Virus record (IMG/VR): IMGVR_UViG_3300042352_000441
Location: 1-36,622 of that record
Source of the DNA: a virus
DNA: 36,622 bases
Direction: 5' to 3' (one strand)
How positions within the stretch are numbered: the first letter of the stretch is position 1; every line of letters starts with the position of its first letter. Under the pieces are notes generated by a model. The model made no database searches and had not been told where the DNA came from. It was given only the letters and a program-made list of their open reading frames with translations. Below, one piece after another: positions 2,233 through 36,620 of the stretch. The translations under genes were made by a program, and so were the position numbers.

Positions 2233-2819
2233 ACTTGCTCCAGTGATATGGTAACATTCCAGTAGGTCTGAAGTCCTCTTTTTACAATAGAAAAATCACA
2301 TGAAGTAAACATAACCGTATACGTATAGTCATCTGCTAAAAATCCATCGGCTTGTTCAACTAACTCTGGATTAAAAGCTGTTGGATTAAGTTTTATTCTA
2401 AAGGGGCCACGGCCAGCTGGGCTCTCATAAAAATTCTTTAAATCTTCAGCCCCCCAACCTCCGTCAACTGTTTCATTTCGAAAAGATGGAAGCATTTCCC
2501 AGGACATAGATATATTTAATTTATCTGCAACAAAATATCTTCTAAGGGTTCCGTTTGCCATTCTGGTAGACTGCTCAATTCTATTATTATTAAAAGACAA
2601 TGGACTTCTATTATGCTCTGAAACTCTTCTAAATCTTAATTGTGTTTTTGAGCTTAGGGCTAGCCCGTTGGTTGTTGCTACTGCAGATGTATATGTGTTT
2701 CCTGGAGCAACTGCAGTTCCGCCTTTATAATCAAAAGAGTTAGTAGCTGTATCAATTGCATATGGGTCTGTTGCCTCAATGTATAGAATTGATCCTTTGG
2801 GTAGTTTTTGAAAACTCAT
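2229..2819 (-). CDS. Distal tail protein-like minor tail protein
   Basis: This 196-aa protein follows the tape measure gene directly; its ATG overlaps the tape measure stop (TAATG), which implies translational coupling. Siphophages place the distal tail protein (Dit), which joins the tail tube to the hub, at exactly this position. The sequence is mainly beta-type, with a segment ISMSWEMLPS around residues 103-112 and a C-terminal strand-rich end (YTVMFTSCDFSIVKRG, then WNVTISLEQV). The C-terminal pattern fits a tube-like or Dit N-domain beta sandwich. I do not recognise a specific family, so the name comes from gene order. The gene is certain as a coding region: full length, good start, tight packing. 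Confidence 0.7.
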   Translation of the reverse strand: MSFQKLPKGSILYIEATDPYAIDTATNSFDYKGGTAVAPGNTYTSAVATTNGLALSSKTQLRFRRVSEHNRSPLSFNNNRIEQSTRMANGTLRRYFVADKLNISMSWEMLPSFRNETVDGGWGAEDLKNFYESPAGRGPFRIKLNPTAFNPELVEQADGFLADDYTYTVMFTSCDFSIVKRGLQTYWNVTISLEQV

Positions 2820-11800: not shown

Positions 11801-14194
11801 TTGTTGAACTATTGCTGCTGCTTGTGTTGCTGCGCTGTCGGCAAATCTTTGAGTTATTGGAAGAATATCATCGAATGTATCCAGAAGTTCTCTGCTTACT
11901 GTTCCACCCATAGCAATTGTTTTCTTTAATGATGCTACTTCTTGCTCTGTCTGCATTCCAAGTGTTGCCATTAATGCATGGAATTTTGCTGCCTCTCCTG
12001 GAACAATTCCAGTTGATATTCCCTTAACACTTGTTAGACCCTCAACGTTTGGAAGTCTATCATGCATGTACATTTGAGGAGTTCTTGCTATTCCTCTGTT
12101 TACTGGAACTGCTCCTGGGACCCCTCCAAATATTGTTGCAGGATTATTTGGGTCTCTAGGATTAATGTGTGACATTGCCCTTGTATTAGGATCTCCCACA
12201 TAAGGATCAGAAGCATCTACAATTCTTCTTCCAGCAGTAACTATTGTGGATCCACCAACTGTGCTTACTCCTGGATTTACTGGAACTGCACCCTTCATTG
12301 ATGCAGCTTGAAGGTTTTGATAATCTAAAACAAGTTTTTGTAATGCATTGTGAAGAACCTGAGCCGCAGCTGCATCTGAATAAAATGCATTCTCGACCAT
12401 CTCTGCTGCTTTTTGTGCGGCAATAATTTCTGGAGTAAGCATTTTCCATCCGCTTGCTTTCATGAAAAATGCTCTAAGCTGTACAATTCCTTTTGTTATA
12501 TATCCAAAGAAGTTAGCAAGCACACCCGTTAACATAATAAGTGGTCCAACTAATGCAGTAAATCCTGCCATAAATGTTACTGCTTTTTTAATTGGTGCTG
12601 GTAAATTACTAAAGAAGTCTAGTATCTTTGATGCGGCATTTATAAGCTTTGTTGCAACTGGAAGAAAGTCTTCTCCAATATCTGCAAGAGATGCTTTTAG
12701 CGATTCCATTGCTCTTCTGTATTTTCCAGAAGCTGACTCTGTTATCATTCCTAATTCTCGCTCAGCAATTCCTGCTAAATCTGAAGTGCTTGCTTTCATT
12801 AATTCCATAACCTGTAAAGTCTGGCTTCCCTCTTTACCTAGGTTATTTAAAAGTGCGCTCATTCTTGCAAACTGGAACTTTCCAAACATCTGCTCCATTG
12901 CTCTAGCCTTACTTAAAGGATCCAGTTTATCTAGAGCAAATTGCAAATCCATTAATAACCCAGTTGTGTCTCCAGTATTTTTTGCAACCATTCCCATTAC
13001 ATCTATACCAAAATCTGACATCATTCCGATTGTTTGTTTTGTTGGATTAATTAAAGAAGCTAAACCTGACTTTAATGCGTTTGCGCCTTCTGAAGCATTA
13101 ATTCCACCCTCTCTCATTGCAGTCATATAAAGGGCTAAGTCTTCAATGCTGCCGCCAAGCTGCTGTACAACTGGACCAGCTTTTGGAATTGCTTCTACTA
13201 AATCATTAAGTGTTGTAGATGTTTGGTTTTCAACTGCGTTAAGAAAGTTAATTGATGCCGTAAGCTCTTCTGTATTTTGCTTAAATGCTGTTTGAATTGA
13301 AAGAGTTGCTTTCATAGCATCTTGTCTATCTACTTCACCAAGTATTGCTAGTCTTGTTGTTTCTTCTATAGAACCTAAAAGATCGTTACCCATTTTTCCA
13401 GTTGCAGCAATATCAGCACCTAAAGCAATTGTGTCTTTAAAAGAAGCTCCCATAGTTTGAGATAAAGACTTTGCTGTCTGAACAACTTCTTCTCTAATTG
13501 CTTTTAAATCTGCTGCTGAAGTTGAAGCTAATCCACCATAAACCTTTGTTAGTCTTACAAGCTCTTGATCTGCTTCTCTAAAAGCTTTTCCTGCTGCAGC
13601 ACCGAACATTGTAAGAGGGACAGTTAATCCTACTGTAAGCTGTCTACCAGCCCACTGAGTATTTTTACCCCAGTTAATTAAAGATCCAGCTCCTTCTGAC
13701 AATGCACGATTCATAATCTGCATTTCCATTCTAGCTAGCTGTGCACTATTCTTTACAGCATCAAGACCTCTTGGAATCATTACGTTATACTGCATTAGCC
13801 CCTGGGCATTTCTTCCCAACGGCTGTAGTACTGAATTTTGAAGCATTACTTGCTCTTTAGCAAGTTCCCTAATCATACCCTTTTGGGTAGTGGCATGTTC
13901 TCTAAATGTTGAGAAGTAGTTCTTAAGCTTTAATCTTCCAGCATCTAAGTTTTTACCAAACTTGTCTACATCTGAATTAAGGTTTACAAAGTGACTAGAG
14001 AACTGCCCGCTACCTGTTAATGTATCTCTAAATAAGTTGTTTGCTAACTTTGTTGAAGAAGCTATTGCTCTGTTTGAAGAAAGAAGCTCTCTTTGTAATT
14101 GTTGGAGACTGGAACTAGCCCTGTGTACTTCAGACACAAGGCTAGACAAGTCGGCTTTGGCGACTATACTCGTTACAATTTGTTCGTCAGCCAC
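2819..14194 (-). CDS. Giant tail tape measure protein with embedded enzyme-like domains
   Basis: At 3791 aa this is the largest gene. It sets tail length and is threaded through the tube. It starts at a GTG with AGGAG six bases upstream and overlaps the stop of the chaperone extension. Residues about 175-570 match the conserved tape-measure core and end in a hydrophobic segment near 535-565. A second hydrophobic region lies near 1920-2000 and a long coiled coil at about 2330-2485. Glycine-pair junctions near residues 902, 961, 1312, 1615, 2790, 3130 and 3700 separate globular blocks. Those blocks include a possible kinase-like region (about 1350-1600), HEFAH at 2960-2964, a GNAT-like region (about 3305-3395) and HEITH at 3516-3520. 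Such domains could act on the cell wall or host after ejection. The tape measure identity is secure; the embedded functions are inferred from motifs. Confidence 0.95.
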   Translation of the reverse strand: MADEQIVTSIVAKADLSSLVSEVHRASSSLQQLQRELLSSNRAIASSTKLANNLFRDTLTGSGQFSSHFVNLNSDVDKFGKNLDAGRLKLKNYFSTFREHATTQKGMIRELAKEQVMLQNSVLQPLGRNAQGLMQYNVMIPRGLDAVKNSAQLARMEMQIMNRALSEGAGSLINWGKNTQWAGRQLTVGLTVPLTMFGAAAGKAFREADQELVRLTKVYGGLASTSAADLKAIREEVVQTAKSLSQTMGASFKDTIALGADIAATGKMGNDLLGSIEETTRLAILGEVDRQDAMKATLSIQTAFKQNTEELTASINFLNAVENQTSTTLNDLVEAIPKAGPVVQQLGGSIEDLALYMTAMREGGINASEGANALKSGLASLINPTKQTIGMMSDFGIDVMGMVAKNTGDTTGLLMDLQFALDKLDPLSKARAMEQMFGKFQFARMSALLNNLGKEGSQTLQVMELMKASTSDLAGIAERELGMITESASGKYRRAMESLKASLADIGEDFLPVATKLINAASKILDFFSNLPAPIKKAVTFMAGFTALVGPLIMLTGVLANFFGYITKGIVQLRAFFMKASGWKMLTPEIIAAQKAAEMVENAFYSDAAAAQVLHNALQKLVLDYQNLQAASMKGAVPVNPGVSTVGGSTIVTAGRRIVDASDPYVGDPNTRAMSHINPRDPNNPATIFGGVPGAVPVNRGIARTPQMYMHDRLPNVEGLTSVKGISTGIVPGEAAKFHALMATLGMQTEQEVASLKKTIAMGGTVSRELLDTFDDILPITQRFADSAATQAAAIVQQLRNSEITVEQAKARILALNAQIEADMGAAVTAYAASRGRTIDLTRAPMMGQPVVDANGQFTLRDLYKKKANASVMEEFGRLRGIRTFGAPYSIQTTRMPRFNDGGGIESFGPGKTMVSGPSSINYDDRLGSVPVGGYVLNQQAAMDPANAALVAMAPSTYLNNGGNITAALTPREVVFGPQIQRMPELYAAVDAANNGYNFGGQIMDGVTGYGKKTARTPNVEDKAYYKKQLKEYLRFINNPRYEDDIRVRMIMLDAAELAHTAGIPVDKAIKIASSNFDLAKSASGGSIEKFIEQRIKQVKGLERRYPSLKHPDSSSTRTPNSKALNYKLNDVRSAMLRSPRFKNVFDLIDGISPTTIKNPGGMPLLEGLHVRGHVLRHGQVGYATRGHMGVAAVLPHGINSLMSRLQGIGISPDVLSLTGPDARKNFEIALKSVGMHRMTSVDDIATALEDNNLFKSKSEIQSGRAIRATSKQRNDLQMFLEAVMSRKKWVMIPRGRPPIMTPVLAKLNKGGMIPGGSISRGRSSYGNPMPLLAPEKMLKILTTAKQLSSREALGSFADTPITQYGHRIAGSSGMSYPIPGVSGVYRDAKGKLVFVKGVSHEAVAIHEPIGADIVRKGFKINTPVMGARTVSNPLDPTKNSKLLALESDYDPRFVKTNVPWDEGTVIRQLAASLLMNNKDLSRSNVFGNFNPDVGQSGVFTRASGNTAVAKAEEMNSMEKQAMINLLAVRGGARKDFARDTAPIVAKMSPRRYGRLMKDALVQARPELVKIINGLPKEIRGPYIAMLKRLDDGIEVDWSKYHSLHANPTYLNAGGPIGGGLIRRGRYAYGAKKDGSRRSGNPAKRAEQERLRAERAASYQPTRSGSSYTATGNPQVQVTRVPYVGGTGVRGNAYTGQLTPSAARTISTMRLAQFPYMNMPTMPMNIPGIGNTAAITQAFSSVSSSIQKGSIRFNLELLNAASKMGIAYKQSTMSIINVSKTAVATARNFATSSADMAKGFVQRRQAEILREQALVTARHYPNGGFDPYQRSYFGPGMVGDWRSTGQDGIQKRKVGSLGFRKTEYMIDGQHMTKAQAKAAGVALPPRGMGMGSQMGIGMAGSMGGMALMQKEKVNVLGYEMSGASAGMGVMAASSILPFLPYAKMGAGLKSAGTASVGLAKGMAAAAKAGTFFIKILPKLLHFAKAFGPIGLVITAAATAFSIFKANNDAWQDARMGLSMTEKAAEQAGVKYFNLQETMQGYLDKQKAVAIAGKASQYNSIGMPGLPQSIEDMKKAKEEGKGLTDLIESINRSTSAAETKRLVANQKAQYIAGGMSIADANRKIYGAMLNSEKSGQVFNIIGNSAFGSITDKASAAEYSVKSLINTLNNGDGTADWGKEVGVGFEGLINVFSSATNSLIGTKDALGNVIDEYTAYQMVMSDAESNNPKINEAIGQSVYSNLIDSQPLLELIANKSDSIKGILAKWKLFTSGVNIDLSKIDSTLAIKLAGFSQAIGTGIQKLTNSADNATTFSSVGSALERLKKTIGSVSAASQRAANAAQRSAQEELKLISKKIKLIDDEKNKKLEALRATQEASNYALSLQKLQIEYADAVSRGDMATANRAQLEIDQLTMNRQTELATKAIEDAAAKAKAPLEKKATDIQDASDKRSNTIATNQDKAASASEIAAKLTEFQEKYNEIVERGIQAQVLPDAERKKEEKAVRESLLAFAKEVQNAGTGSSALSKEIRNAFFKLGLFDKDGKAIPVTTTKPTGGMPTGVDANGKPIIPTTTTINSGLTEQFAKDMKAVTSLALDITGGTTLNQLRLDLLKALGKSSSATADPTTVGGKVVPGKGGNPTKYFDSKGNQITKEQYESMPSSSPGGGTNFSVPIDGLKSKSFGSMSAVQREFFELNGGKGEYKSVDGYKYLANGLVYKDKAIVGRWWHFLPNGNGRVKTYSEGSPGGVVSGPGTGTSDSIPAMLSNGEYVIKAASVAKYGTQTFDALNAGKYADGGLVLNEPRPAVDYTPLPSTPISKLGKTTQAQIKYLRDWTNLLNTYYAAKYKDIFSFKPGEKIVTSLDTMPVVKGTKVVKDPDKALLDTQQYGGQYRHYDSSITMGLGLAGKPMFIPNPINEPSTMKNLNLISSFPFLAKGMSPVDYIESISKDAQKNPYGRMEILTTLFHEFAHALQFRINGYIKNSQKSRGLTDVGDPNKPTPGFLNIESGADVMAGGIFKEMYSNGYIPQIKKSVIDTLLKSQTLTASYGDVPAFDKRDPSSENFTWHPYNNNFRFKSVMTGFGMGDSASFDDTLTLRKQYLTENGGVPITFAEIGDSAAAIAAITPNMIPKGFHKGGPVGHRHGRNAPSTSGNTAPSQGSWWDKLGLKMSYKPDGMMNPVGMTGFGILDAIKSLGAVAIGSVVPSLPARERDIASAAETTLVGPASRLFGSERFPSPWGESGLGMSSGWSKGMDVASILAAVVPFGMVARTSQQTAVNAAAFPAARAAASVGLAKPKPTLPSLMPDVLKPKKVMPSEYSLAYDASGSMHRIEVKLGDEVAGYLTWDKETGVVENLQVYPKHQGKNVATAMYNKAQTIAPITHSSYRTPAGDIFAHSIGDPVVPLNDSWLPGDWTQAQLDAAKLRNKNHVVTQLPKVKDPDLDGFSGPDIVGGQRVVGTENWGSLITENSDIMKILTELSAFYKVDVRPSVIRQKMTPGTAGYHRSDTQSVYFPDKTRGAVVAHEITHAADFQGAYWSFEDMLKYLLKTDRKAAEIVFNESMMNSYGVAKSGGNRPAWLYDSVASNLETYAPQHLPYWRGLLEKNANSQIPNIKPAGLDLGNPYADIYGFKLASMLKSSMREGSTHYRSPKFWEALIADENIPSHLAKKGEGYIAALNRYRVDETTPNDSFQLKKLLEYAIATKMAKGGLVGIPKFEAGINVVPADMLAMIHKNEAVIPANMNPFNPNATSSAVASGSVYNINVELNGTTVTAKDVAMEIHREMRIKEMAAGVNRTVGK
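3335..3937 (-). other. HExxH metallopeptidase-like region of the tape measure (C-terminal)
   Basis: Residues about 3420-3620 of the tape measure contain VVAHEITHAADF, with HEITH at 3516-3520. This is the HExxH zinc-binding signature of gluzincin/metzincin-type peptidases. The preceding strand (TQSVYFPD) and following helix fit an active-site helix. A third zinc ligand is not certain; acidic residues downstream such as FNESMMNSYG are candidates. The motif is seen directly; peptidase activity and its target are inferred. Confidence 0.5.
4012..4282 (-). other. GNAT acetyltransferase-like region of the tape measure
   Basis: Residues about 3305-3395 of the tape measure show the order expected of a small GNAT fold: strands (IEVKLGDEVAGYLTWD), then VENLQVYPKHQGKNVATAMY, which resembles the acetyl-CoA binding motif Q/RxxGxG/A. 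The second glycine is Asn here (QGKNVA), so binding may be altered. The region sits between the two HExxH motifs. A GNAT fold inside a tape measure is unusual, and activity is not shown by the sequence. Confidence 0.5.
4805..5827 (-). other. HExxH metallopeptidase-like region of the tape measure (first)
   Basis: Between the Gly-Gly junctions near residues 2790 and 3130, the tape measure contains TTLFHEFAHALQ, with HEFAH at 2960-2964. About 35 residues later comes NIESGADVMAGG, whose Glu could be a third zinc ligand. The spacing and surrounding helices look like a zinc-peptidase domain. A tail-delivered peptidase could help cross the envelope or process the tape measure itself. The motif is seen; the function is inferred. 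Confidence 0.5.
9395..10147 (-). other. Possible HipA/PI3K-type kinase-like region of the tape measure
   Basis: Residues about 1350-1600 show a pattern reminiscent of the kinase-like folds found in some phage head and toxin proteins. GVYRDAKGKLVFVKG would supply a nucleotide-binding lysine, HEPIGADIVRKG a following helix with Glu, and LLMNNKDLSRSNVFGN could stand for a catalytic-loop (N-x-D-x-x-x-x-N) motif. The assignment is by eye on short motifs and may be wrong. The block is bounded by Gly-Gly junctions. Confidence 0.3.
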
Positions 14195-25210: not shown

Positions 25211-25219
25211 ATTATAGCA
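25211..25219 (-). promoter_or_regulatory. Extended -10 promoter TGCTATAAT for the LamG gene, leaderless
   Basis: TATAAT at 25216-25211 with upstream TGC overlaps the end of the preceding gene. Six bases separate it from the ATG at 25204, so transcription should start at the A of ATG. No -35 of quality is seen, which extended -10 promoters can tolerate. There is no ribosome binding site. Confidence 0.72.
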
Positions 25220-25817
25220 GATTAGTCTTGCTAGTCTTTTCTTCCTTTAAAGTAAACTTACACTTAATGTAATACAGTGGCTCTACCTTGTTCATGCCTT
25301 GAGAATGATCTACCATGTCTCTAATCATTAGTGCCGTTCCTGGCTCTGGATTAATATAGATACCTTTAGATCTATCAACGCAAAATGGAGAAGAGGACAG
25401 TTCCGTGTTTATCAATAAGTAAACAGATACAGAGTTTTCATCATATGTATTTTCAAATAGCTGCTCTCTACTAAACTCCAGCATTGGCAGTGATTTAAAA
25501 AGTGTTATTTCTTCTAGGTCGCCTGTTTCTCTCATTATATAATTAGAGTAGTGCTCTTTACAAAAAGATAAACCTGATTTAAAGCTGTTATATATATACA
25601 AGCATTTCTGCAACATTCTTTCAGACATCATGCTTGTATTTTTGTTAAAAGTTTTGTATACAGTAAATTCATTAAATGTGGTCCATGGAGATATGTATCC
25701 GTGAGTTGATTCGTCTAAATCGCACTCCTCAATAAATCTAAGTAGGGTGTCTGATTCGGTTAGATTGTTTTGAAAATAGAGACAATCGCTATCTAGTATC
25801 GCTGGCAAATGCATCAT
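25212..25817 (-). CDS. Degenerate 2-oxoglutarate oxygenase-like protein
   Basis: The 201-aa protein is the last gene of the oxygenase block and shares its overall outline: an N-terminal helical part, then strands SVSVYLLINTELSSSPF, an INPEPGTALMIRD turn like the KPxAGD..xFP of its neighbours, a distal His (H171) and a final strand YYIKCKF. However, the segment that should carry HxD (LPMLEFSREQLFENTY) has no such motif, so iron binding as in the other five is not expected. It may be a pseudoenzyme, a partner subunit, or a diverged member with another function. GGAG nine bases before the ATG supports the start. The fold relation is inferred by eye. Confidence 0.6.
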   Translation of the reverse strand: MMHLPAILDSDCLYFQNNLTESDTLLRFIEECDLDESTHGYISPWTTFNEFTVYKTFNKNTSMMSERMLQKCLYIYNSFKSGLSFCKEHYSNYIMRETGDLEEITLFKSLPMLEFSREQLFENTYDENSVSVYLLINTELSSSPFCVDRSKGIYINPEPGTALMIRDMVDHSQGMNKVEPLYYIKCKFTLKEEKTSKTNLL

Positions 25818-25819
25818 AA

Positions 25820-26437
25820 TTAATTACTCCAATTTGTTTCTAGGTCGTACCAAAAAAATGGAACCATGTACTTGCTCCCAGAAGTTACTGGCAAAGGGTG
25901 ATGGAAGTATGGCCTGTATGCAGGAAACATAATTAAACTTCCAGCCTCTGGCTTAATCTTTACATCTTGCTCTGGGAAATAAATTTCTCCACCCTCATAA
26001 TCATCGTTAAGGTAAAGAACTCCAGAAACTACTGGGTGGGCTTTGTCTGTTGGATCTTCTGCATCAACATGTTTCCCCATATCTGCAAGAGAGTTATATT
26101 TTCTTATACTAAAATAATCTGGAAGCTTGAGCTGTCTAGACCCTGTATTGTATGCATAGTTTACAAAACATAAATCAGATATTGATTTAATTTTATAAAC
26201 CAGCATGGATGTCTCTAGGTCAAGATCATTTTTATATTGCATATTAGAAAACATTCCATCTTTTGAAACACCATACTCTGTATCTTGATCACTAGCTTTC
26301 CAGGTTTTCCATTTTGAAAGCTGCGAAGTATTGGTGTTAGCAGATTCTAAATACTCAATCTTATCTACAAACTGCTTTGGATTGCTAAGCAAATTTTTAT
26401 AATAAAATATTTGATTATCTAATTTTTCTATAAGCAT
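25820..26437 (-). CDS. Prolyl 4-hydroxylase-like Fe(II)/2OG dioxygenase (1)
   Basis: This 205-aa enzyme belongs to the double-stranded beta-helix family that uses Fe(II), O2 and 2-oxoglutarate to hydroxylate side chains. Iron ligands are H123 and D125 (GKHVDAED) and H179 (YFHH). K189, ten residues after H179, should bind 2-oxoglutarate, as in prolyl 4-hydroxylases. The phrase VLYLNDDYEGGEIYFPEQ and then KPEAGSLIMFPAY are typical of this family. Two start codons are possible; ATG 26437 has GAGGG at six bases, whereas ATG 26443 has no space for one, so I chose 26437. It overlaps the preceding gene by 23 bases. No signal peptide is visible, so it acts in the host cytoplasm. Confidence 0.88.
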   Translation of the reverse strand: MLIEKLDNQIFYYKNLLSNPKQFVDKIEYLESANTNTSQLSKWKTWKASDQDTEYGVSKDGMFSNMQYKNDLDLETSMLVYKIKSISDLCFVNYAYNTGSRQLKLPDYFSIRKYNSLADMGKHVDAEDPTDKAHPVVSGVLYLNDDYEGGEIYFPEQDVKIKPEAGSLIMFPAYRPYFHHPLPVTSGSKYMVPFFWYDLETNWSN

Positions 26438-27269
26438 TTTCATCCCTCATAAAAAATGGAGTAGACTTGTCTAGCTTAGGATCTTCTTCTCCATACTTAA
26501 CTAGGTACTTATGCCATATTCCAGACTGAATTTCTTCTTTCATTCTTTCGGAATCCATTTTATCCCACTCGTCGCCGTACTTTTCTTTATTAGCATGCCA
26601 TTCTGGGCTTCCGTCAAAATCATAAGACCAGAAGCATCTTATGAAATATTTTTCTCCATTATCAACTCTATCTACTCCATGGAAGTAATGTGATCCTCCA
26701 GTTACTGGGTCACCTGATGGAAAAACAACTATGTCTCCAGCCTCTGGCTTGTAGTCAATAACATCCCCAGTATCATCTTTAAGGAAAGATAGTCCTCCAC
26801 CGTCGTAGTCGTCATTAATATATACGGTACATGTAATTGCAAATTTTTTTCCTGGGGACTCGCTATCGAATCCTCTGTAATCTGTATGATAATGCATAGC
26901 CATTTCATTTTGCTTTGATGTTTCCCAATACTTGCAAATTGAAATTCCATTGTTTACCCAATTTGGTAAAGAAATATCATTTGTTTTAACATAATCTTCT
27001 GTACATGCATAATAAGCATTTGTAACATCTGTAAGAAAATCTTTTTGCAATAAGGTATACTCATTCTGGATATCTGTCGTATACTCATCGTTTTGTCTAT
27101 TCATAGAAAGGTTCATCATCTTGCCAAATCCATACCAGTCTTGCCACTCTGTAAATAATCCTTCGGGCAACTTTTCCTCAGACTGTTTTAAAAGATCAGT
27201 ATATTCTTTCCACCTAGGAAGCATATTTTTATAAACAATAACTTTTGGATATATCTCTAGCTTGTTCAT
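26415..27269 (-). CDS. Prolyl 4-hydroxylase-like Fe(II)/2OG dioxygenase (2)
   Basis: The 284-aa protein has a full active site: H128 and D130 (HYHTDYRG), H197 (YFHGVD) and K207 (NGEKYF), the His-to-Lys spacing of ten residues being that of prolyl 4-hydroxylases. CTVYINDDYDGGGLSFLKDD and YKPEAGDIVVFPSGDP are family landmarks. It is the longest of the five. The N-terminus (about 1-110) is a helical domain with many aromatic residues that might choose the substrate, and a 70-residue charged C-terminal extension (NKEKYGDEWDKMDSERMKEE) is not found in the shorter neighbours. The ATG overlaps the upstream stop as ATGA. Its substrate is unknown. Confidence 0.9.
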   Translation of the reverse strand: MNKLEIYPKVIVYKNMLPRWKEYTDLLKQSEEKLPEGLFTEWQDWYGFGKMMNLSMNRQNDEYTTDIQNEYTLLQKDFLTDVTNAYYACTEDYVKTNDISLPNWVNNGISICKYWETSKQNEMAMHYHTDYRGFDSESPGKKFAITCTVYINDDYDGGGLSFLKDDTGDVIDYKPEAGDIVVFPSGDPVTGGSHYFHGVDRVDNGEKYFIRCFWSYDFDGSPEWHANKEKYGDEWDKMDSERMKEEIQSGIWHKYLVKYGEEDPKLDKSTPFFMRDENAYRKIR

Positions 27270-27988
27270 TTCTCACCATACTTTCCAATGTAGTCTTGCG
27301 TTATGCCCATCTCTTTTTCTTTTTTCCAGGACTCATATGTCCGATCCTGCTCTTCTCTAGTTTTCTTAAGGCGCTCAGCTCTTTCTTTTAATCTTTCTTC
27401 GCTATAAACAGAATCTGCAGTGTCCCAAAATGATCCTATTGTGTATCGTGTTCCACCGTGGACTTTTGTAACTTCGTGCTCATTTGTGTGTCCTCCAGCA
27501 AAAATTGCTATCTTTCCTATAGATGGCTTAATGTTAATATCATAATTTTTAAAGTTTAAGTACCCACCTTCAAAATCATTATTTAGATATATAAACGCAG
27601 CATACTTGCTACTTTCAAATTCAGTAGGATTCCCATCTTCATCTGAATTGTCAGAATGAAATGATGCATATGCTCCATCTGTCCATTTTTGAGCATGATA
27701 GCTTACCTCAGATAATTCTTTTAACAAAACGTTTTCTGCTAGGTCTTTTATTCTTTTTTTTAATACTTCATTAAAATAATTAGAAGGCAATCCAAATAGT
27801 TCTAGGTTTGGATCGTAAGGCCAAAATCCCATGGCAAATGAATCATAAAAGGATATTTGATTCCATTCTAAAATCTTATTGTCTACCAACCATTCAAGAT
27901 AAGAAATTATAGACTTGCATTCTGATTCTGATAAAAAGTTATCAGCAGTAAAACATTCTTCCTTATGCATTGTTATCCAGCTACTCAT
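27266..27988 (-). CDS. Prolyl 4-hydroxylase-like Fe(II)/2OG dioxygenase (3)
   Basis: From the ATG at 27988 the protein has 240 aa. Iron ligands are H111 and D113 (FHSDNSDEDG) and H171 (NEHEVTKVHGG); R181, ten residues on, would bind 2-oxoglutarate. AAFIYLNNDFEGGYLNFKNY and IKPSIGKIAIFAGG replace the usual landmarks with modest changes. The start at 27988 has AAAGGA eight bases upstream and overlaps the previous gene by eight bases; a longer frame from 28030 would overlap by 50 bases and lacks a better ribosome site. The C-terminus is a highly charged helix (LKERAERLKKTREEQDRTYE) that may mediate contacts. Confidence 0.88.
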   Translation of the reverse strand: MSSWITMHKEECFTADNFLSESECKSIISYLEWLVDNKILEWNQISFYDSFAMGFWPYDPNLELFGLPSNYFNEVLKKRIKDLAENVLLKELSEVSYHAQKWTDGAYASFHSDNSDEDGNPTEFESSKYAAFIYLNNDFEGGYLNFKNYDINIKPSIGKIAIFAGGHTNEHEVTKVHGGTRYTIGSFWDTADSVYSEERLKERAERLKKTREEQDRTYESWKKEKEMGITQDYIGKYGEK

Positions 27989-28694
27989 TTTTAAAATCCT
28001 TTGGCCCGCTAAATTTTTCTGGCAAGACACTTATTGTCCAGAAATAAGGTGAAGTATATCTACACCCGCTTACTATTGGTCTAACTCCATGAATATAGTT
28101 TAAGTCTCCAGGAAAGAAGTATCCAGCTCGTGCTTTGGGCTTAAACTCTATTCCCTGTTTTGGAAAATATAGCTCTCCGCCTTCATAGTCATCGTTAATA
28201 TAAAAAACTGTTCCTATGTCATACCATGGAAAAGAGTTCGGTGTTCCTGCATCTGGGCCTTCATGAAGCTCTTTATCTGCGTGAGGCTCTTGTCTTGCTC
28301 CAACTGGCCATCTAACTAATGCTGGTCCTGTCGCAAAGCACTCAACCTCAAAGAAATTTTCAATTACTGGCTTGAATCTACGTACAATATTATTTAATAT
28401 CTCGATAATATCATGTGCACCATTTTTTAATAGCTGCTCCCCAGTAACAACTCTGTTGGCCCATGGCCTGTCGTCATAAATAACTGTTCCATTCTCATTA
28501 AACTCTGTTGGAATGTCATCAAATGAACTATTATTTTTAGAAAATGAAAGTAGAATAGACTGCTCTTCTTCTGTAATAAAATTTTCTACTTCTACTATAT
28601 TTTTATCTGAGTCTCCAAAAAATCCAGAGGGTGTTATAGATTTAGCATTAAAGTTAGAAACATTTTTAGAAGTGTCCCATTTGTTCATATCCAT
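27981..28694 (-). CDS. Prolyl 4-hydroxylase-like Fe(II)/2OG dioxygenase (4)
   Basis: The 237-aa protein contains H138 and D140 (QEPHADKE), H202 (YIHGVR) and R212 (GCRYTS), the complete Fe(II) and 2-oxoglutarate set with Arg rather than Lys. Family landmarks are GTVFYINDDYEGGELYFPKQ and FKPKARAGYFFPGD. The N-terminal domain includes VEVENFITEEEQSILLSFSK, the usual opening of 2OG oxygenases ('..v.nfls..ec..l..'). The ATG overlaps the stop of the upstream gene (TAATG), so translation is coupled. It is separated from oxygenase (5) by two genes of another family. Confidence 0.9.
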   Translation of the reverse strand: MDMNKWDTSKNVSNFNAKSITPSGFFGDSDKNIVEVENFITEEEQSILLSFSKNNSSFDDIPTEFNENGTVIYDDRPWANRVVTGEQLLKNGAHDIIEILNNIVRRFKPVIENFFEVECFATGPALVRWPVGARQEPHADKELHEGPDAGTPNSFPWYDIGTVFYINDDYEGGELYFPKQGIEFKPKARAGYFFPGDLNYIHGVRPIVSGCRYTSPYFWTISVLPEKFSGPKDFKNE

Positions 28695-29398
28695 TATTCA
28701 TACCTCTTTCTTGACCATACTTTTTTCTTGTAGGCCCCACCTTCGGGGACTCTAAATTTATTTGCCTGATAATGATGCCTCTCTATTATTTGTTCCTGAG
28801 TATACATCTTTTGATCTGATTCCCAATCTTCTCTTTTAAACGGAATAATCTGAGCATAAGGAGTTCCTTTAGGAATCATTCCCTCAAACCCGCTTTTTAA
28901 AAAGAATGGCATAAGTCCTGGGGTATCCATCTTGTCGTTATCAATTATACCAGAGAGGGTTATAAATGGTAGGTCGTGTCTATTTAGTGGATGAATATAT
29001 AAAGCACTATACCCAGGCTCTAGCCCTGGCATCCAATTTGGATACCAATGGAAATGCTTATCTGTTCCAAGTGGTTTTGGAAATCCTGGCATATCTGGCC
29101 TAATTCCACAAAAATCTTCGTATCCGCCTGGAGACATTGGAACGGTGTATTCGTTACCTGCTTCGTCTTTTGTAATAGACATATAGATATCACATGGAGT
29201 TTTTAAAACATACCCTGTAACAAAGGCATCTATTAAAGCTGGACAAGCTTTAAATGAAAGGGAGTCTTTATTTTCTGGGAACCAATATCTGCTTGATTCT
29301 ACAAACCAACTAGGTATATTCTTTTTTGTAGTTTCTGGTGCAAATTCTAAGCTCATAGAGTTGTATACTCTATTGGAATGAAATGTAATTTTAGGCAT
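28694..29398 (-). CDS. Uncharacterised protein, paralogue of the next gene upstream (possibly DUF6065-like)
   Basis: This 234-aa protein, from the ATG at 29398, has no HxD site. It is rich in Pro and aromatic residues (HFHWYPNWMPGLEPGYSALY, then HPLNRHDLPFITLSGIID) and ends with a motif, MIPKGTPYAQIIPFKREDW, echoed in its upstream neighbour as IPANTPIANIVPISLGEL. From memory this ending and size recall DUF6065 proteins of phages and bacteria, which are uncharacterised; that is a guess. The start at 29398 is chosen because AAGG lies nine bases upstream and the overlap with the previous gene is only eight bases; a TTG two codons earlier is weaker. The beta-rich pattern could be cupin-like. Confidence 0.72.
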   Translation of the reverse strand: MPKITFHSNRVYNSMSLEFAPETTKKNIPSWFVESSRYWFPENKDSLSFKACPALIDAFVTGYVLKTPCDIYMSITKDEAGNEYTVPMSPGGYEDFCGIRPDMPGFPKPLGTDKHFHWYPNWMPGLEPGYSALYIHPLNRHDLPFITLSGIIDNDKMDTPGLMPFFLKSGFEGMIPKGTPYAQIIPFKREDWESDQKMYTQEQIIERHHYQANKFRVPEGGAYKKKVWSRKRYE

Positions 29399-30089
29399 TA
29401 TCAATAACCTTAAGCCTTATAGACTTGACTTCGTGCTCACCCAACTTATTACCACACGGGTCAACTGAGTCTCTATAAAAATTAGTCCAGCTGCCCGACT
29501 CAGTTATTTCTTTTATTTTTTTCATTGAGGCTTGCGGGTCACAGTTAGTATGCGGTATTTCATTTTGATCTACAAATTTAATTTCAGAGTTTTGCAATTC
29601 CCCCAATGATATAGGGACTATATTTGCAATTGGTGTATTTGCTGGAATTGTTATTTTTACCATTGGTTCTGTTATCTTCCAGGCTATTGGGAAATCTCCA
29701 TGAAAAAATGAAGTGCTTATTAAAGTTGTAAAACATTGAACCCCTCTAATAAATAGATTAGGGGTTGGAATACATAAAAGACTTAAATTGCTATCTGTCT
29801 TAAATCCTATACCTGAATTAAAACTAATTGTTCCATTAGCCCTTCCAGTGGACACATATTTTTCCCCCGAAAGAACTTTTACGTGATGGGGAGAAGAGTC
29901 TGAAATTCCATCCCAGACAAATGATATTTCTTCTGGAAAAGATATGCTCCATCCCAAAGAATTAGTCACAGTAACAGGAAAGCAGTTATATGCATGTCTA
30001 TCGTAAGTCTCATCCATCCAGTCTCTTTTTACTGGGGATTGAGATATGTTAGACAGGCCTGTTGTTTTAAATGCTTTTATAGAATACAT
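29391..30089 (-). CDS. Uncharacterised protein, paralogue of the next gene downstream (possibly DUF6065-like)
   Basis: The protein has 232 aa and begins at an ATG overlapping the stop of oxygenase (5) as TAATG. It contains HAYNCFPVTVTNSLGWSISF and FVWDGISDS, an opening I associate from memory with DUF6065, and shares with the downstream gene the motif IPANTPIANIVPISLGEL and the beta-rich run before it. It has no catalytic signature I can name. Being locked by overlaps between two oxygenase genes, it probably works in the same process, for example as a substrate carrier or another modifying enzyme, but this is inference from position alone. Confidence 0.72.
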   Translation of the reverse strand: MYSIKAFKTTGLSNISQSPVKRDWMDETYDRHAYNCFPVTVTNSLGWSISFPEEISFVWDGISDSSPHHVKVLSGEKYVSTGRANGTISFNSGIGFKTDSNLSLLCIPTPNLFIRGVQCFTTLISTSFFHGDFPIAWKITEPMVKITIPANTPIANIVPISLGELQNSEIKFVDQNEIPHTNCDPQASMKKIKEITESGSWTNFYRDSVDPCGNKLGEHEVKSIRLKVIDNA

Positions 30090-30787
30090 TAGAGCAAGCT
30101 CTTTGAATACTGTGCCTCTAAGTTTCTGTATTCTGGAGTATGAGCGGTTTCTAAATAGTCAAGCATTGTTACTATAGAATACTTTACTCCCGAAGTAACT
30201 GGCATTGCGGCGTGTGAATAAACATAAGAAGAAGGAAATAGATAAAGATCTCCAGCTTTAGGCTTAATCTTTAAGTTAAGTTTATCAAAAAATAACTCTC
30301 CGCCTTCGTAATCATCGTTTAAATACCCTACTAAAGACAGTACGCATGTATAAGAGTATCCATGATCTGAATGGACTTGAAAATGCTGTCCAGCTCCGTA
30401 TCTAATAAAGTTAAATGATTCCCAGTATTTTAGAGGGGCAAGGCTAAACATATTTCTATAGTCATCAACTGCTGGAAGCTGTGCATAGTATGCATCTTCC
30501 CAAATTCTAATTAGATCTTTATCGGTTTCATCTTGTTTTTCTTGGCTAACGTTATCCATATGTGCGGACAAAGATTTATCTTCATTGTACTTAAGTTTGA
30601 AATCTACACAGTCTCTGTAACTAAGGTTTTTTGCTCCGTAGCCCGTGTATCCTGGCTTCCAGCTGTATCTTGTATTAGACTCTGAGCCTAGGGTGTTTTC
30701 TAGTCTTTCAATATACTGTTTATCTTTGGTAAAAACATCTCTATATACGACTATTCCTGTAGCTAGGTATTCTGCATTTTCTAACAT
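30089..30787 (-). CDS. Prolyl 4-hydroxylase-like Fe(II)/2OG dioxygenase (5)
   Basis: This 232-aa enzyme is the first oxygenase in transcription order. It has H139 and D141 (FQVHSDHGYS), H192 (YSHAAMPVTSG) and K202 (VKYSIV), ten residues after the distal His, matching the prolyl 4-hydroxylase alpha-subunit catalytic domain. LVGYLNDDYEGGELFFDKLN and IKPKAGDLYLFPSSYVYSH are strong family landmarks. The N-terminus is helical with a Tyr/Trp-rich part (YSWKPGYTGYGAKNLSYRD). A promoter-like TGATACAAT lies about 26 bases upstream. Of the five it is nearest to the PPG-repeat gene, three genes away. Confidence 0.9.
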   Translation of the reverse strand: MLENAEYLATGIVVYRDVFTKDKQYIERLENTLGSESNTRYSWKPGYTGYGAKNLSYRDCVDFKLKYNEDKSLSAHMDNVSQEKQDETDKDLIRIWEDAYYAQLPAVDDYRNMFSLAPLKYWESFNFIRYGAGQHFQVHSDHGYSYTCVLSLVGYLNDDYEGGELFFDKLNLKIKPKAGDLYLFPSSYVYSHAAMPVTSGVKYSIVTMLDYLETAHTPEYRNLEAQYSKSLL

Positions 30788-31937: not shown

Positions 31938-33251
31938 TTATAGGGGGCCAGGACCATCTGGATCATTAGATCCAAATAGGGTGGTGCTATGTGCATGCAT
32001 ATCAAATGTAACTCCGTTTTCTGTAAAGTAGAAGTCCCATGGCTCTACGTTTATAGAATAAGACTGAATTGTAATGTCTTCATTTAACTCTAACGATTCA
32101 ATCGCAACAAAGTCTTTTGATTGGAAGTTGTAAATTAAATCAGTATTTAGTAAATCTTTTACGTTTAGCGATCTAATTTCGTTATCACGCTTTGCAAGTA
32201 TAAAGTGATTTAGTGTATATATATCACCATTTACTGCTGCTGCACCTAAGTTCTCGTGCAACATTTTTCCGACAACAGTTACTTCTGTTTCTTCTGCGCC
32301 GTCAATTTGCTCTTGAGTAATAACATAGTCTGAATAAGATCCGTATGAACCATCATCAAGTAGCCAGTAGTCGTCTGGAATTCCTGGAATTCTTAACCCT
32401 ATTACTGCATCTCCTACTTCAATTTGACCAGCTGAAACCATTCCTGTAGGAGTTCTCAAAAGAGTGTTCACTCCGACAGACTTAATAAAGCTAGGTGGTG
32501 AGAAGAACCCTGGTGGGGCGAAGAACCCTGGTGGGGCGAAGAACCCTGGTGGGGCAAAGAACCCTGGTGGGGCAAAGAACCCTGGAGGACCAAAGAAACC
32601 TGGAGGTGCAAAGAATCCTGGAGGACCGAAGAAGCTTGGTGGTCCGAAGAAGCTTGGGGCCTGTGTTGTAACCTGGTTAGAAGCTCCAGAATACCCTCCT
32701 GCACCGTTGGCATTTTCAGCCCGTATCTGATACGTCTGAGCAGTACTTGCCTCTTGCGTAATAGATATTGGAGAAGATGCTGAAGTTCCAGTTTTACCGT
32801 CGGAGCTTGTCCAGCGATATAAAGTTATTGCTGATCCACCGTCGGATGGAGCTGTAAATGAAATACTGTCTGCATTTACACCAGCAGTTGCTGACGGGGC
32901 AGACATGGTAGCTGGAACTGTTGTAGCTGTTGCAGTTGCAGTATTTGAATCTGTTGAAGTTCCGTAAGAATCAGCTGCTCGTACTGTATAAGAATTAGAG
33001 CTAGCTGAAGATAGCCCAGTATGTGAGTATGTTGTTGTGGGATGAGAAACAGTTGCAATTTCTGTTCCACTTCTAAATACCTTATAAGATGTTGGGGTAT
33101 TTGCTCCTTCAGAAGCAGTCCATGAGAGATCTATTCTTCCATCATTAAATGCTCTGCCAGAAGGCACGTTTGTGGCTGTTAAGTTGGTCGGAGCAAGCGG
33201 GCCAGTAAAGTTATCCTGGGCTGATGCTCTTCTACCTATATTTTTTGACAT
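31938..33251 (-). CDS. Fibronectin III - PPG-repeat - Hint domain virion protein
   Basis: The 437-aa protein has three parts. Residues about 15-197 hold two fibronectin type III-like domains (APTNLTATNV, RIDLSWTASEGANTPTSYKV; AGVNADSISFTAPSDGGSAI), common on phage tails. Residues 200-253 are nine tandem hexapeptides of the form [G/S]FF[G/A/S]PP, with seven Pro-Pro-Gly steps. Residues 258-422 are a Hint domain: SVGVNTLLRTPTG and QIEVGDAV (block A, with Ser258 at the place of the usual Cys1), YTLNHFILA (block B, T346-x-N348-H349) and YSINVEPWDFYFTENGVTF (final block). The usual terminal His-Asn pair is missing, so C-terminal cleavage is unlikely. AGGGG precedes the ATG. It lies between a fibre gene and the hydroxylase block. 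Confidence 0.85.
   Translation of the reverse strand: MSKNIGRRASAQDNFTGPLAPTNLTATNVPSGRAFNDGRIDLSWTASEGANTPTSYKVFRSGTEIATVSHPTTTYSHTGLSSASSNSYTVRAADSYGTSTDSNTATATATTVPATMSAPSATAGVNADSISFTAPSDGGSAITLYRWTSSDGKTGTSASSPISITQEASTAQTYQIRAENANGAGGYSGASNQVTTQAPSFFGPPSFFGPPGFFAPPGFFGPPGFFAPPGFFAPPGFFAPPGFFAPPGFFSPPSFIKSVGVNTLLRTPTGMVSAGQIEVGDAVIGLRIPGIPDDYWLLDDGSYGSYSDYVITQEQIDGAEETEVTVVGKMLHENLGAAAVNGDIYTLNHFILAKRDNEIRSLNVKDLLNTDLIYNFQSKDFVAIESLELNEDITIQSYSINVEPWDFYFTENGVTFDMHAHSTTLFGSNDPDGPGPL
32493..32654 (-). repeat. Nine 18-bp tandem repeats encoding xFFxPP
   Basis: The repeat units encode SFFGPP twice, then GFFAPP, GFFGPP, GFFAPP four times and GFFSPP. Several units are identical or differ by one base, which points to recent expansion. 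In every unit positions 1 and 4 are Gly, Ala or Ser, so the protein has a small residue at each third position, as collagen does, with FF and PP alternating between them. Confidence 0.95.
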
Positions 33252-33271: not shown

Positions 33272-35359
33272 TTATCTTAAATCTCCAGCTAACAACCATG
33301 TTGTAGCTGCAATTTTTGTTGCTGTAACTGATGAATTTGTTGTTCTAAGAATCCGACCTGGTGTGGCTAGAACTGTAATTCCGCTTTCAATAAAGTTTGC
33401 ACCTGTTCCAGCTGACTGATAGAAGCTTATAGAAGAACCGATTGCATATTTAGCATTTCCTGTAGCTTCAAATGTTATTCCTACTGCTCCTGATAGAGGA
33501 ATTAAGGAGTCTCTTACTGCAGCGTCAGTGCCAAGTGCATCAAGTGTTGTATTTGATGAAATTGCTGATGCTATTGTAGTTAGAGATGGAACTCCAGCCT
33601 TTGTCTGTGTCTTGTCTGTAAATGCTACTCCTGCTGCTGCAACTGTTACTGTTCCAGTAAATGTTGGTGAAGCAATTGGTGCTTTTGCTGCTAAATTAGT
33701 TGTAACTGTTGATGCAAAGTTTGCGTCATCACCTAGTGCTGCTGCTAGTTCATCAAGTGTATTGAGTGCTGCTGGAGCACCTGCTAGAAGTGCGTTAACC
33801 TGTGATGTTGCATCTGCAATAGCTTCTGATTTAGCTGTAGCAATTGCTGTTGCCTGTGCTGTAGAGACTGGCTTTGAGGCATCTGCTGTATTATCAACAT
33901 TTCCAAGGCCTACGTGTGCTTTTGTAACACCAGCAACTGTTCCAGTAAATGTTGGTGAATCAATTGGTGCGTATGTTGATGCTGCTGTTGCAGATGCTAG
34001 CTTAGCATCAAGTGCTGCTCCAAGGCCGTCAATCTTTGACTGAGCAATTGCTGCCGCTGAATTTACATCTGCATCAACAATTGTTCCGTTTGCAATTTTA
34101 CCTGTTGTAACTGCTGAATCTGCAATCTTTCCTTCTGTTACAGCAAGTGATCCAATTTTGTCAGCTGTTACAGCAAGTGATGCAATTTTGTCAGATGTTA
34201 CTGCATCATTGTTAATTTTAGCAGTAGTAATATTTGAATCTGCAATCTTTGCAGTTGTAACTGCATCATCTGCAATCTTTGCAGTTGTTACTGCAAGACC
34301 ACTAATTTCATTTGTTCCTACAGAATCATCTGAAAGGTGTATTTGTAGGATTGCGTTATCTGCAATTTTATCAGAAGTTACAGCATCATCTGCAATCTTT
34401 ATTGTTGTTACGGATGTATCACCAAGTTTGGAAGTTGTAACTGCAGAATCTGCAATCTTTGCAGTTGTAACTGCAAGATCTGTAATCTTTCCTTCAGTTA
34501 CTGAAAGATCTAATGGGTTTCTTGCATCTTGTAGTCTATAGTCTCCTGTGTAAACAAGGCTAGCTGTATCTGAAATGCCGTGAATGTTGGTTGTAGTATC
34601 TTTGTGTGTTCCTACAGCATTAGCAGTTCTTTGATCTACATAAAATTTATTTGTAGCATCATAATCTGTTGTTGCTGTACCAAGTGCTGTAATCTTGTTT
34701 GTATCCATATTAAGGACACCTGACATTGTATCGCCAGACTTTGCTACCTTACCTGAAATTGCTGTTGTTAATGTACCTGAAAGGTCAGCATTGTCTGCTA
34801 AAGATGTTGCAATTTCTGCTAGTGTATTTAATGCTGCTGGAGCCGCTCCAACTACTACCTCAATTGCATCCTGAACAAACGCTGTTGTTGCAACCTGAGT
34901 TGTATCTGTTCCTACTGAAGCTGTTGGTGCTGTTGGTGTTCCAGTCAAAGCTGGTGATGATAAAGTTTTTGCTGTTAGTGTCTGATTAGCATCTAATGTT
35001 ACAAGATTTGCTGTATTTGCAATTCCATGTACTGAAGTAGTAGCGTTATTATGATTTGTAACTGCTGTAGATACTTCTGCATCTAATGCTGCTGCTCCAG
35101 GAAGCTGAGCAAGTGGGATTAAGCCAGAACCGTCTAGTGAGGCTACTCCGTTTGCAACTCCTTTTGTACTCAAAGCAATGTAGTCATCTACTGTGCCTGA
35201 AAGGGCGTATTCAAGGCTATTCCACGCTGTGGTGCCATCGCCAAATTTAAATGTGTTAGTATCTGTTTCAATACCAATTTCTCCAGCTGCTAGAACTGGG
35301 TTAGCATCGAACCAATCGTCTGCGATACCTCTTCTTAATTGTAATCTTACTGTTGCCAT
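33272..35359 (-). CDS. Tail fibre protein with KIxDxAVT repeats
   Basis: The protein has 695 aa. The first 55 residues (VRLQLRRGIADDWFDANPVL, then FKFGDGTTAWNSLEYALSG) match the N-terminal beta unit of tropism determinant and fibre proteins (Mtd N-terminal-like), likely the virion attachment part. Two similar segments, APAALNTLAEIATSLADNAD near 172 and APAALNTLDELAAALGDDAN near 527, flank a shaft. Residues about 283-427 hold some fourteen 10-residue repeats of the type AVTTAKIADD. GLGNVDNTADASKPVS near 482 is a well-known fibre phrase. The C-terminus (GRILRTTNSSVTATKIAATT, then WLLAGDL) is a common tip. It probably trimerises and binds the host surface. AAGGGG precedes the ATG. Confidence 0.9.
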   Translation of the reverse strand: MATVRLQLRRGIADDWFDANPVLAAGEIGIETDTNTFKFGDGTTAWNSLEYALSGTVDDYIALSTKGVANGVASLDGSGLIPLAQLPGAAALDAEVSTAVTNHNNATTSVHGIANTANLVTLDANQTLTAKTLSSPALTGTPTAPTASVGTDTTQVATTAFVQDAIEVVVGAAPAALNTLAEIATSLADNADLSGTLTTAISGKVAKSGDTMSGVLNMDTNKITALGTATTDYDATNKFYVDQRTANAVGTHKDTTTNIHGISDTASLVYTGDYRLQDARNPLDLSVTEGKITDLAVTTAKIADSAVTTSKLGDTSVTTIKIADDAVTSDKIADNAILQIHLSDDSVGTNEISGLAVTTAKIADDAVTTAKIADSNITTAKINNDAVTSDKIASLAVTADKIGSLAVTEGKIADSAVTTGKIANGTIVDADVNSAAAIAQSKIDGLGAALDAKLASATAASTYAPIDSPTFTGTVAGVTKAHVGLGNVDNTADASKPVSTAQATAIATAKSEAIADATSQVNALLAGAPAALNTLDELAAALGDDANFASTVTTNLAAKAPIASPTFTGTVTVAAAGVAFTDKTQTKAGVPSLTTIASAISSNTTLDALGTDAAVRDSLIPLSGAVGITFEATGNAKYAIGSSISFYQSAGTGANFIESGITVLATPGRILRTTNSSVTATKIAATTWLLAGDLR
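34080..34508 (-). repeat. Tandem 10-residue KIxDxAVTx repeats of the fibre shaft
   Basis: About fourteen consecutive units of 30 bases encode variants of AVTTAKIADD; several neighbours are near identical in DNA (tctgcaatctttgcagttgt occurs repeatedly). Such repeats build trimeric fibre shafts and change copy number by recombination. Confidence 0.85.
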
Positions 35360-35843: not shown

Positions 35844-36620
35844 TTATTTAATTAGTGTTCCAGATACTTTAACTGTTGAGTTATTTACTGGAGTAACCCG
35901 TATTCTTACGTTTGAACCTGAAACATCTGCTGTAATTGTTCCTCTTGATCCATTAGTTCCAACAATTGCATATTCTGTAATTGCTACGTTATCTGATGAA
36001 TCTAGTGTTACTAGAATTTCTGATATTTCATTGTGAGTCTCATTATCAATTTTAACAAGGAACTTACCTGAACGGTAATCAGCTTTTGCCCACTCATAAG
36101 CTGTTCCAGCGACTGTTGCTGTTCCAGAAGATGAGGCTGCAATTTGCTTAGCCTGGTCGTTAACGTTTAATGCTGTAAAAGATGTTGTACCATTTTGCTG
36201 TGCAGTATTAGCTGCCGCTGCTGTGGCCTCTGCGGCTGCTTGAGCAGCATTGGCCTTAGTGGTAGCATCTGCTGCTGCTGTAGCTTCTGCAGCTGCTTGA
36301 GCAGCATTGGCCTTGGTGGTAGCATCTGTAGAAGCTGATGATATTGCCTCTGATTTAGCTGTTGCTACATTTGCTGTAGTAGCCAATAGAGATGTGTCAG
36401 CAATTCCATGAACGTTAGTAGTGTCAGAGCTGTGTGTTGAGAGAGCAGATGCTGCGGTGGCCTCTGCGGCTGCTTGAGCAGCATTGGCCTTAGTGGTAGC
36501 ATCTGAAGCGGCATTTGAAGCTGCTGTTGAAATTGCTGAAGTTACATCAGCTGAATTAGCCTTTGTTCCGAGAGCAGTTGTAATAGTTGTTGTGTAATTA
36601 GCATCGTCATTAATTGCTGC
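35844..36620 (-). CDS. Tail fibre protein, 5' end beyond the window
   Basis: The reading frame is open from the right edge to a stop at 35844, giving 258 visible residues; an apparent start at 36386 is a TTG inside this open frame, not the true start. The edge begins INDDANYTTTITTALGTKAN, the same type of segment as in the 695-aa fibre. It is followed by Ala-rich helical repeats (ATTKANAAQAAAEATAA three times) and a phrase TTNVHGIADTS shared with the other fibre. The last hundred residues (AYEWAKADYRSGKFLVKIDN, ISEILVTLDSSDNVAITEYA, TADVSGSNVRIRVTPVNNST) form a beta domain frequent at the end of marine phage structural proteins. It is probably a fibre paralogue. Confidence 0.85.
   Translation of the reverse strand, partial: AAINDDANYTTTITTALGTKANSADVTSAISTAASNAASDATTKANAAQAAAEATAASALSTHSSDTTNVHGIADTSLLATTANVATAKSEAISSASTDATTKANAAQAAAEATAAADATTKANAAQAAAEATAAAANTAQQNGTTSFTALNVNDQAKQIAASSSGTATVAGTAYEWAKADYRSGKFLVKIDNETHNEISEILVTLDSSDNVAITEYAIVGTNGSRGTITADVSGSNVRIRVTPVNNSTVKVSGTLIK
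36223..36505 (-). repeat. Three copies of a 49-bp repeat in the truncated fibre gene
   Basis: Copies lie at 36223-36271, 36280-36328 and 36457-36505. The first and third are identical over all 49 bases; the middle one differs at a few positions. They encode DATTKANAAQAAAEAT, a probable coiled-coil or Ala-rich shaft segment, and could allow length change by recombination. Confidence 0.85.

Follow-up and report, generated by a model that had tools for sequence, protein, structure and literature searches.

Phage genes that encode arrays of a short Phe/Pro repeat are genetically linked to genes for prolyl-hydroxylase-like oxygenases, and nearly 200 virus DNA records carry the Phe/Pro segments and such genes together. 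Comparative sequence analysis makes it probable, in our view, that the array with the unit xFFsPP is the stalk of a virion-surface fibre protein, and that its residues are hydroxylated by the five 2OG-Fe(II) oxygenases encoded beside it. Neither these five oxygenases of the P4H superfamily nor their linkage to the array featured in the preliminary description of this DNA.

The array protein and its genomic setting

The window, i.e. the whole 36,622-nucleotide stretch that we analysed (a 36.6 kb virus record), belongs to an actinophage-type virus, since its portal is 59% identical to the portals of Streptomyces phages such as Karimac (Stanwilliamsviridae) and the order of its genes (protein upstream of the portal, portal, protease, capsid) matches that of Karimac. 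The host is presumably a freshwater actinobacterium. The tape measure protein encoded at 2819-14194 is unusually long at 3791 aa. Two tail-fibre-like genes lie upstream of the array gene; downstream on the same strand come two small genes, a P4H-superfamily oxygenase, a DUF6065 gene, a phrog_7084 gene and four further oxygenases:

35844-36620: tail-fibre-like gene in the upstream neighbourhood of the array gene
33272-35359, minus strand: Mtd_N-containing tail fibre protein, encoded immediately upstream of the array gene
31938-33251, minus strand: array protein P0001, 437 aa (ORF; Pfam fn3; AF2)
32493-32654, minus strand: array of nine 18-bp units (G/S)FF(G/A/S)PP, residues 200-253 of P0001
31941-32492, minus strand: C-terminal Hint (Hedgehog/intein fold) domain (AF2; Foldseek; VIA-align; alignment)
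30089-30787, minus strand: 2OG-Fe(II) oxygenase, P4H superfamily (PF13640, 2.1e-16; HSD...H...K), query of the reverse linkage test
29391-30089, minus strand: DUF6065 protein (PF19541, 5e-29), conserved module member
28694-29404, minus strand: phrog_7084 protein, function not assigned, conserved module member
27981-28694, minus strand: 2OG-Fe(II) oxygenase paralogue (HAD...H...R; PF13640, 1.2e-4, below the cut-off)
27266-28030, minus strand: 2OG-Fe(II) oxygenase paralogue (HSD...H...R; weakly matched by the model of YhhC, a peptide-modifying oxygenase)
26415-27269, minus strand: 2OG-Fe(II) oxygenase paralogue (HTD...H...K)
25820-26443, minus strand: 2OG-Fe(II) oxygenase paralogue (HVD...H...K)

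In agreement with the preliminary description, the array consists of nine 18-bp units (162 bp) exactly at 32493-32654, as judged by the minus-strand ORF and by Tandem Repeats Finder, which reports an 18-bp unit in 8.8 copies at 32494-32651 with 87% matches and no indels. The units follow one another as SFFGPP SFFGPP GFFAPP GFFGPP GFFAPP GFFAPP GFFAPP GFFAPP GFFSPP. A plus-strand ORF at 32464-32730 with GGAKNP repeats was set aside as an antisense reading of the array. The identical protein, with all 437 residues and nine units, is encoded by the IMG/VR contigs L001 and L002, which stem from two metagenomes other than that of the window, so assembly error in a single data set does not explain the array. 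The recent expansion of the units that had been proposed gains support from the differing copy number among near relatives, which have 9, 10, 11 or 12 units (in another pair, L030 has 12 and L031 13); relatives overall have 3-35. Tandem repeats are also found in the neighbouring tail-fibre genes, with a 57-bp unit at 36212-36328 and a 30-bp unit at 34135-34490.

P0001 has a basic N-terminus, two FN3-like beta-sandwiches (about residues 21-196), the array (200-253) and the Hint domain (about 258-416). The earlier placement of the array between fibronectin-like domains and a Hint domain was thus correct, as shown by an AF2 model of the whole protein and a fold search with the Hint part. The Pfam fn3 match of the window copy (E 7e-4) falls under the cut-off, but its close homologues pass it and AF2 predicts two confident beta-sandwiches, which together place these domains in the fibronectin type III family. 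The C-terminal domain is likewise predicted with confidence, whereas the array, modelled as a single unmodified chain, is not (pLDDT 35-38).

Modelled alone, the Hint domain reaches a pLDDT of 87.6 and matches BIL domains, inteins and the Hedgehog autoprocessing domain at Z 16-17.6 in Foldseek and VIA-align comparisons (BIL 2lwy, E 1.3e-7; 6y75, Z 17.6; 1at0, Z 16.1). In the alignment, the nucleophile position 1 is Ser in the window clade and Cys in other relatives. The block B motif TxxH is present in the window (TLNH) and kept in its clade, and the block-B His is replaced by D, E or Q in many Cys-type relatives. The window protein shares fold and position-1 Cys/Ser with BIL/Hint domains but differs from them in having neither a C-terminal extein nor a terminal His-Asn, its Hint being the tip of a fibre-like protein. 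Since the C-terminal His-Asn of splicing inteins, which some relatives have in the alignment, is absent, we do not file the window protein as an intein. A catalytic Hint is possible but would not be general, given the relatives in which the block-B His is gone.

The repeat family and its relation to collagen

All family counts given here were obtained within IMG/VR, whose records are fragments. A homology scan of viral records returned 79 loci, and 882 units from 60 distinct proteins were compared. The prolines at positions 5 and 6 are invariant (PP in 882/882 units) although the proteins are down to about 30% identical, Phe occupies positions 2 and 3 in more than 99% of the units, and codons vary between units and genomes while PP stays the same. 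A homology-free two-unit DNA pattern was found in at least 120 viral stretches; together with the 882 units in 60 proteins, this places the repeat far beyond chance. Among the array genes found by homology and by pattern, the first Phe of the unit is encoded by TTC in 93% of cases and the second by TTT in 66%, so synonymous choice is position-specific.

The preliminary description saw a collagen-like small residue at every third position, which is true of the window copy but does not extend to the family. Position 4 is Ser, Gly or Ala in 96% of units (Gly 30%), whereas position 1 is Gly in 43%, Arg in 12%, Leu in 9%, Thr in 6% and other residues in the remainder, with R, L, T, V, Q, F, N and D together accounting for about 38%. 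Even in the window, Gly fills 10 of the 18 third positions, at odds with the Gly rule of collagen. Sister arrays repeat units of 3 or 4 residues (FFP or FFPP), and the collagen period is therefore not a family property. The Pfam Collagen model (PF01391) did not match P0001 up to E 0.5; among the homologues, L020 gave the only weak match, below the cut-off (8.6e-4). The array would accordingly not be classed with the collagen family on its residues, and the earlier argument that a normal collagen triple helix is disfavoured is borne out by the Gly count, the bulky position 1 of relatives and the FFP and FFPP units.

The array is embedded in several architectures. Proteins with the order FN3-FN3-array end in Hint, in a short Cys-rich tail or in a short aromatic/basic tail; there are also short array proteins whose N-terminal part resembles PASTA, and proteins of 700-1050 aa with the array and a Hint or short tail at their end. 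In L174 the array directly precedes Peptidase_S74 (7e-10), a fibre chaperone, so that this protein resembles S74-chaperone phage tail fibres where the window protein has Hint instead. Overall, about half of the array proteins have a Cys-rich, S74 or short tail where the others have Hint, and such exchange suggests that the C-terminal caps serve as tips or as ends that set the register of the chains. Many FFP/FFPP array proteins (L433, L425, L085, L142) end in short Cys-rich tails, which could form inter-chain disulphide knots as at the ends of collagen. Often a single genome encodes a pair of array proteins that differ from each other but have similar C-terminal cassettes (L228; L184; L185/L230; L015/L163), which suggests co-assembly or gene conversion. 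A protein of another oxygenase-bearing phage (L153:5973-7139) combines PASTA, FN3, five PPDFTPA-type units and Hint, with no FF pairs in its array.

Searches of isolate phages with the FN3 and Hint parts returned none with the array, and only phage NCTB matched, by its Hint. Its tail-region gene SBV38305 (L402:6960-8480) has a homologous Hint C-terminal to a repeat stalk, as in the window; unlike the window array, the NCTB stalk is true collagen (Pfam Collagen, 6e-15), and its PF13640 genes lie at least 24 kb from the collagen-Hint gene, not clustered as in the window. A further 'intein domain' protein adjoins that gene.

Linkage of the arrays to oxygenases

The HxD...H iron triad and the K/R for 2-oxoglutarate are intact in all five window oxygenases, four of which exceed the PF13640 cut-off (the exception being 27981-28694). 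The nearest solved sequence relative of the 30089-30787 enzyme is the B. anthracis P4H (PDB, 6e-8). At the end of the cluster, 25212-25817 possibly encodes a degenerate, rarely conserved 2OG oxygenase relative without HxD.

PF13640 genes are present in 49 of 50 array records selected by homology and in 49 of 50 selected by the DNA pattern (45/50 above the curated cut-off), as compared with 3 of 50 random records drawn with an arbitrary 14-mer (Fisher 2e-23, a value inflated by kinship). Array records usually have 3-12 oxygenase copies. The two without PF13640, G005 and G100, are contigs of 12-13 kb with the array gene near a contig end and little downstream DNA. In the reverse direction, a same-strand Phe/Pro array gene lies upstream of the oxygenase, at a median of 1.7 kb, in 71 of the 80 loci listed for the 30089-30787 enzyme; the array matches of L411 and L454 were spurious and do not count towards the 71. 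Among the matches listed, all 57 loci with at least 3 kb upstream have an array, and the nine without one have less than 2.2 kb upstream each.

The linkage also holds within one clade. Of 27 portal relatives lacking xFFsPP, 14 have oxygenases and 13 do not. Another array (FFPP, FFP, HFPP, YFPP or PPDFTPA) is carried by 13 of the 14 oxygenase-bearing relatives, the fourteenth having a single oxygenase near a contig end, and by 0 of the 13 oxygenase-free ones (Fisher 7e-7, again inflated by kinship). A homologue of the window portal is found in 28 of 50 array records, and large PASTA-type records (G065, G070 and G072; 70-106 kb) have none, yet carry array, oxygenases and DUF6065; by this gene content, the linkage holds across different phage backbones. 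On the oxygenase tree, the array types separate by about one change (obtained without L417, a mis-extracted sequence with a very long branch); many co-occurrences therefore reflect common descent, and the tree gives no count of independent co-evolution events.

Relatives of the 27981-28694 oxygenase are best hits in 146 of 170 array loci of at least 9 kb. DUF6065 is present in 45 of 50 array records and 151 of 170 array loci, and by its distribution belongs to the array-oxygenase module; together with the phrog_7084 protein it is a near-constant partner of the array (130-151 of 170 loci). The literature searched, which was thin on subscription journals, held no mention of DUF6065. The linkage of DUF6065 is almost as tight as that of the oxygenases, which could therefore be part of a common module directed at another target.

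A candidate hydroxylated stalk

Hydroxyproline stabilises polyproline II and adds polarity. By analogy with the established chemistry of P4H-family enzymes, the array would be the substrate of the neighbouring oxygenases, and we infer the proline target, the oligomeric state, the virion location and the role of the Hint domain. Gene order and domain type point to a fibre protein on the virion surface, probably tail-associated. An extended, proline-enforced rod would join the two N-terminal FN3 domains to an interchangeable C-terminal tip or capping domain: in the window this is Hint, whereas relatives have Cys-rich knots, short aromatic/basic tails or the S74 chaperone. The five oxygenases would hydroxylate array residues, the invariant proline pair of every unit being the most likely target, and would thereby stiffen a polyproline-II-like conformation and allow a highly hydrophobic Phe/Pro sequence to stay soluble and to assemble. 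The rod would comprise several chains, probably three if collagen and S74-capped fibres are a guide, with the Phe pairs packed between them; copy number would set stalk length, allowing quick change through unit expansion.

Part of this was foreseen. In the preliminary description the expansion, the FN3-Hint position and the class of a hydrophobic stalk or trimerisation element were well chosen, and the small-residue rule was too broad for the family. By analogy, that class remains the best one, because NCTB has collagen at the same place before a related Hint and S74 follows an array in L174; the tail-fibre neighbourhood of the array gene likewise argues for a stalk. Some observations run counter to the hydroxylated stalk: PF13640 and NCBIfam matches do not fix the substrate and related enzymes modify other residues, the single-chain array lacks a confident AF2 fold, and units of 3, 4 and 6 residues do not fit easily into a simple PPII trimer whose Phe residues keep to fixed faces.

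An ordinary flexible linker, of low complexity, expanded by slippage and without a structural role, would explain the low pLDDT of the array and the differing copy number of near relatives. We regard this as quite improbable: invariant PP and nearly invariant FF in distant proteins with differing codons, a Phe-rich sequence opposite to that of the usual soluble linker, and the 57/57 linkage to oxygenases among the matches listed all weigh against the disordered linker that the preliminary description had named as a refuting outcome. Still less credible is a true collagen-like triple helix with Gly, Ala or Ser at the close-packed position; the three-residue period of the xFFsPP subset, the adjoining P4H-superfamily genes, the weak L020 match and the real collagen of NCTB point that way, and yet the window has too few Gly, relatives place R, L, Q, F or T at position 1, and FFPP and FFP arrays break the period.

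It is unlikely, though worth more weight than either of these, that array and oxygenases merely co-travel because related freshwater phages keep both in an island for host recognition, and that the oxygenases modify something else, be it a glycan, a tail fibre, a host protein or Phe in place of Pro. The island does contain DUF6065, the phrog_7084 family and tail-fibre genes, the array type segregates with the oxygenase lineage in about one event, and related oxygenases occur in cyanophages and others, known there from oxygenase matches alone. Against mere co-travel, xFFsPP, FFP, FFPP, HFPP and PPDFTPA arrays have proline and oxygenases in common rather than sequence, both partners are present or absent together in one portal clade, and the module also sits on backbones lacking a homologue of the window portal. 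Somewhat doubtful, and compatible with a stalk, is autoprocessing by Hint, which would cleave after the array and join the array's C-terminus to a nucleophile (water, a lipid or another chain), leaving the array as mature end or anchor. The fold matches, Hedgehog included, the Cys or Ser at position 1 throughout and the TxxH of the window clade favour it; the loss of the block-B His in many Cys-type relatives does not, and as Hint is missing from about half of the array proteins, autoprocessing cannot be general.

For the hydroxylated stalk, the nearest general precedent is a virus that encodes both a collagen-like protein and its hydroxylase, as giant viruses do; these and the exosporium of B. 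anthracis have collagen-like fibres with their own prolyl or lysyl hydroxylases. The window resembles them in having a Pro-rich repeat protein (at the particle surface in those systems) and a 2OG-Fe(II) enzyme of hydroxylase type in one genome, but differs in that it has no Gly-X-Y, Phe pairs dominate, several oxygenases adjoin the array gene and the viruses are tailed phages. The collagen-like proteins of E. coli prophages are phage-encoded repeats too, but with Gly-X-Y, another repeat and another context (PMC3368898). Plant extensins, hydroxyproline-rich glycoproteins of the cell wall, share Ser followed by prolines, which there become hydroxyproline, but lack Phe pairs, a likeness without demonstrated homology (PMC4769139). 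By these analogies, the array may work like a hydroxylated collagen or extensin rod. A paper on Nanopelagicales phages mentions two collagen-like proteins and no hydroxylase. In the literature searched, thin as it was on subscription journals, we found neither the array repeat nor its pairing with oxygenases described, nor any phage said to encode the prolyl hydroxylation of its tail proteins.

More tentatively, at somewhat short of even confidence, we propose that Phe/Pro arrays hydroxylated by dedicated, co-inherited oxygenases (with DUF6065) constitute an undescribed viral structural material, one that forms rigid fibres distinct from both collagen and coiled coil and is widespread in freshwater phages. 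Prolyl-hydroxylase-like 2OG oxygenases are common in aquatic phages, where annotation usually places them among auxiliary metabolic genes without an assigned role, and the linkage offers them a concrete candidate substrate, the phage's own fibre. If this is true, DUF6065 would acquire a functional context, virion assembly would depend on O2, iron and 2-oxoglutarate, and the freely expanding 18-bp units would encode a new repeat protein of material interest. Tailed phages would then have a hydroxyproline-based fibre chemistry, and viruses may harden their own fibres as animals do collagen.
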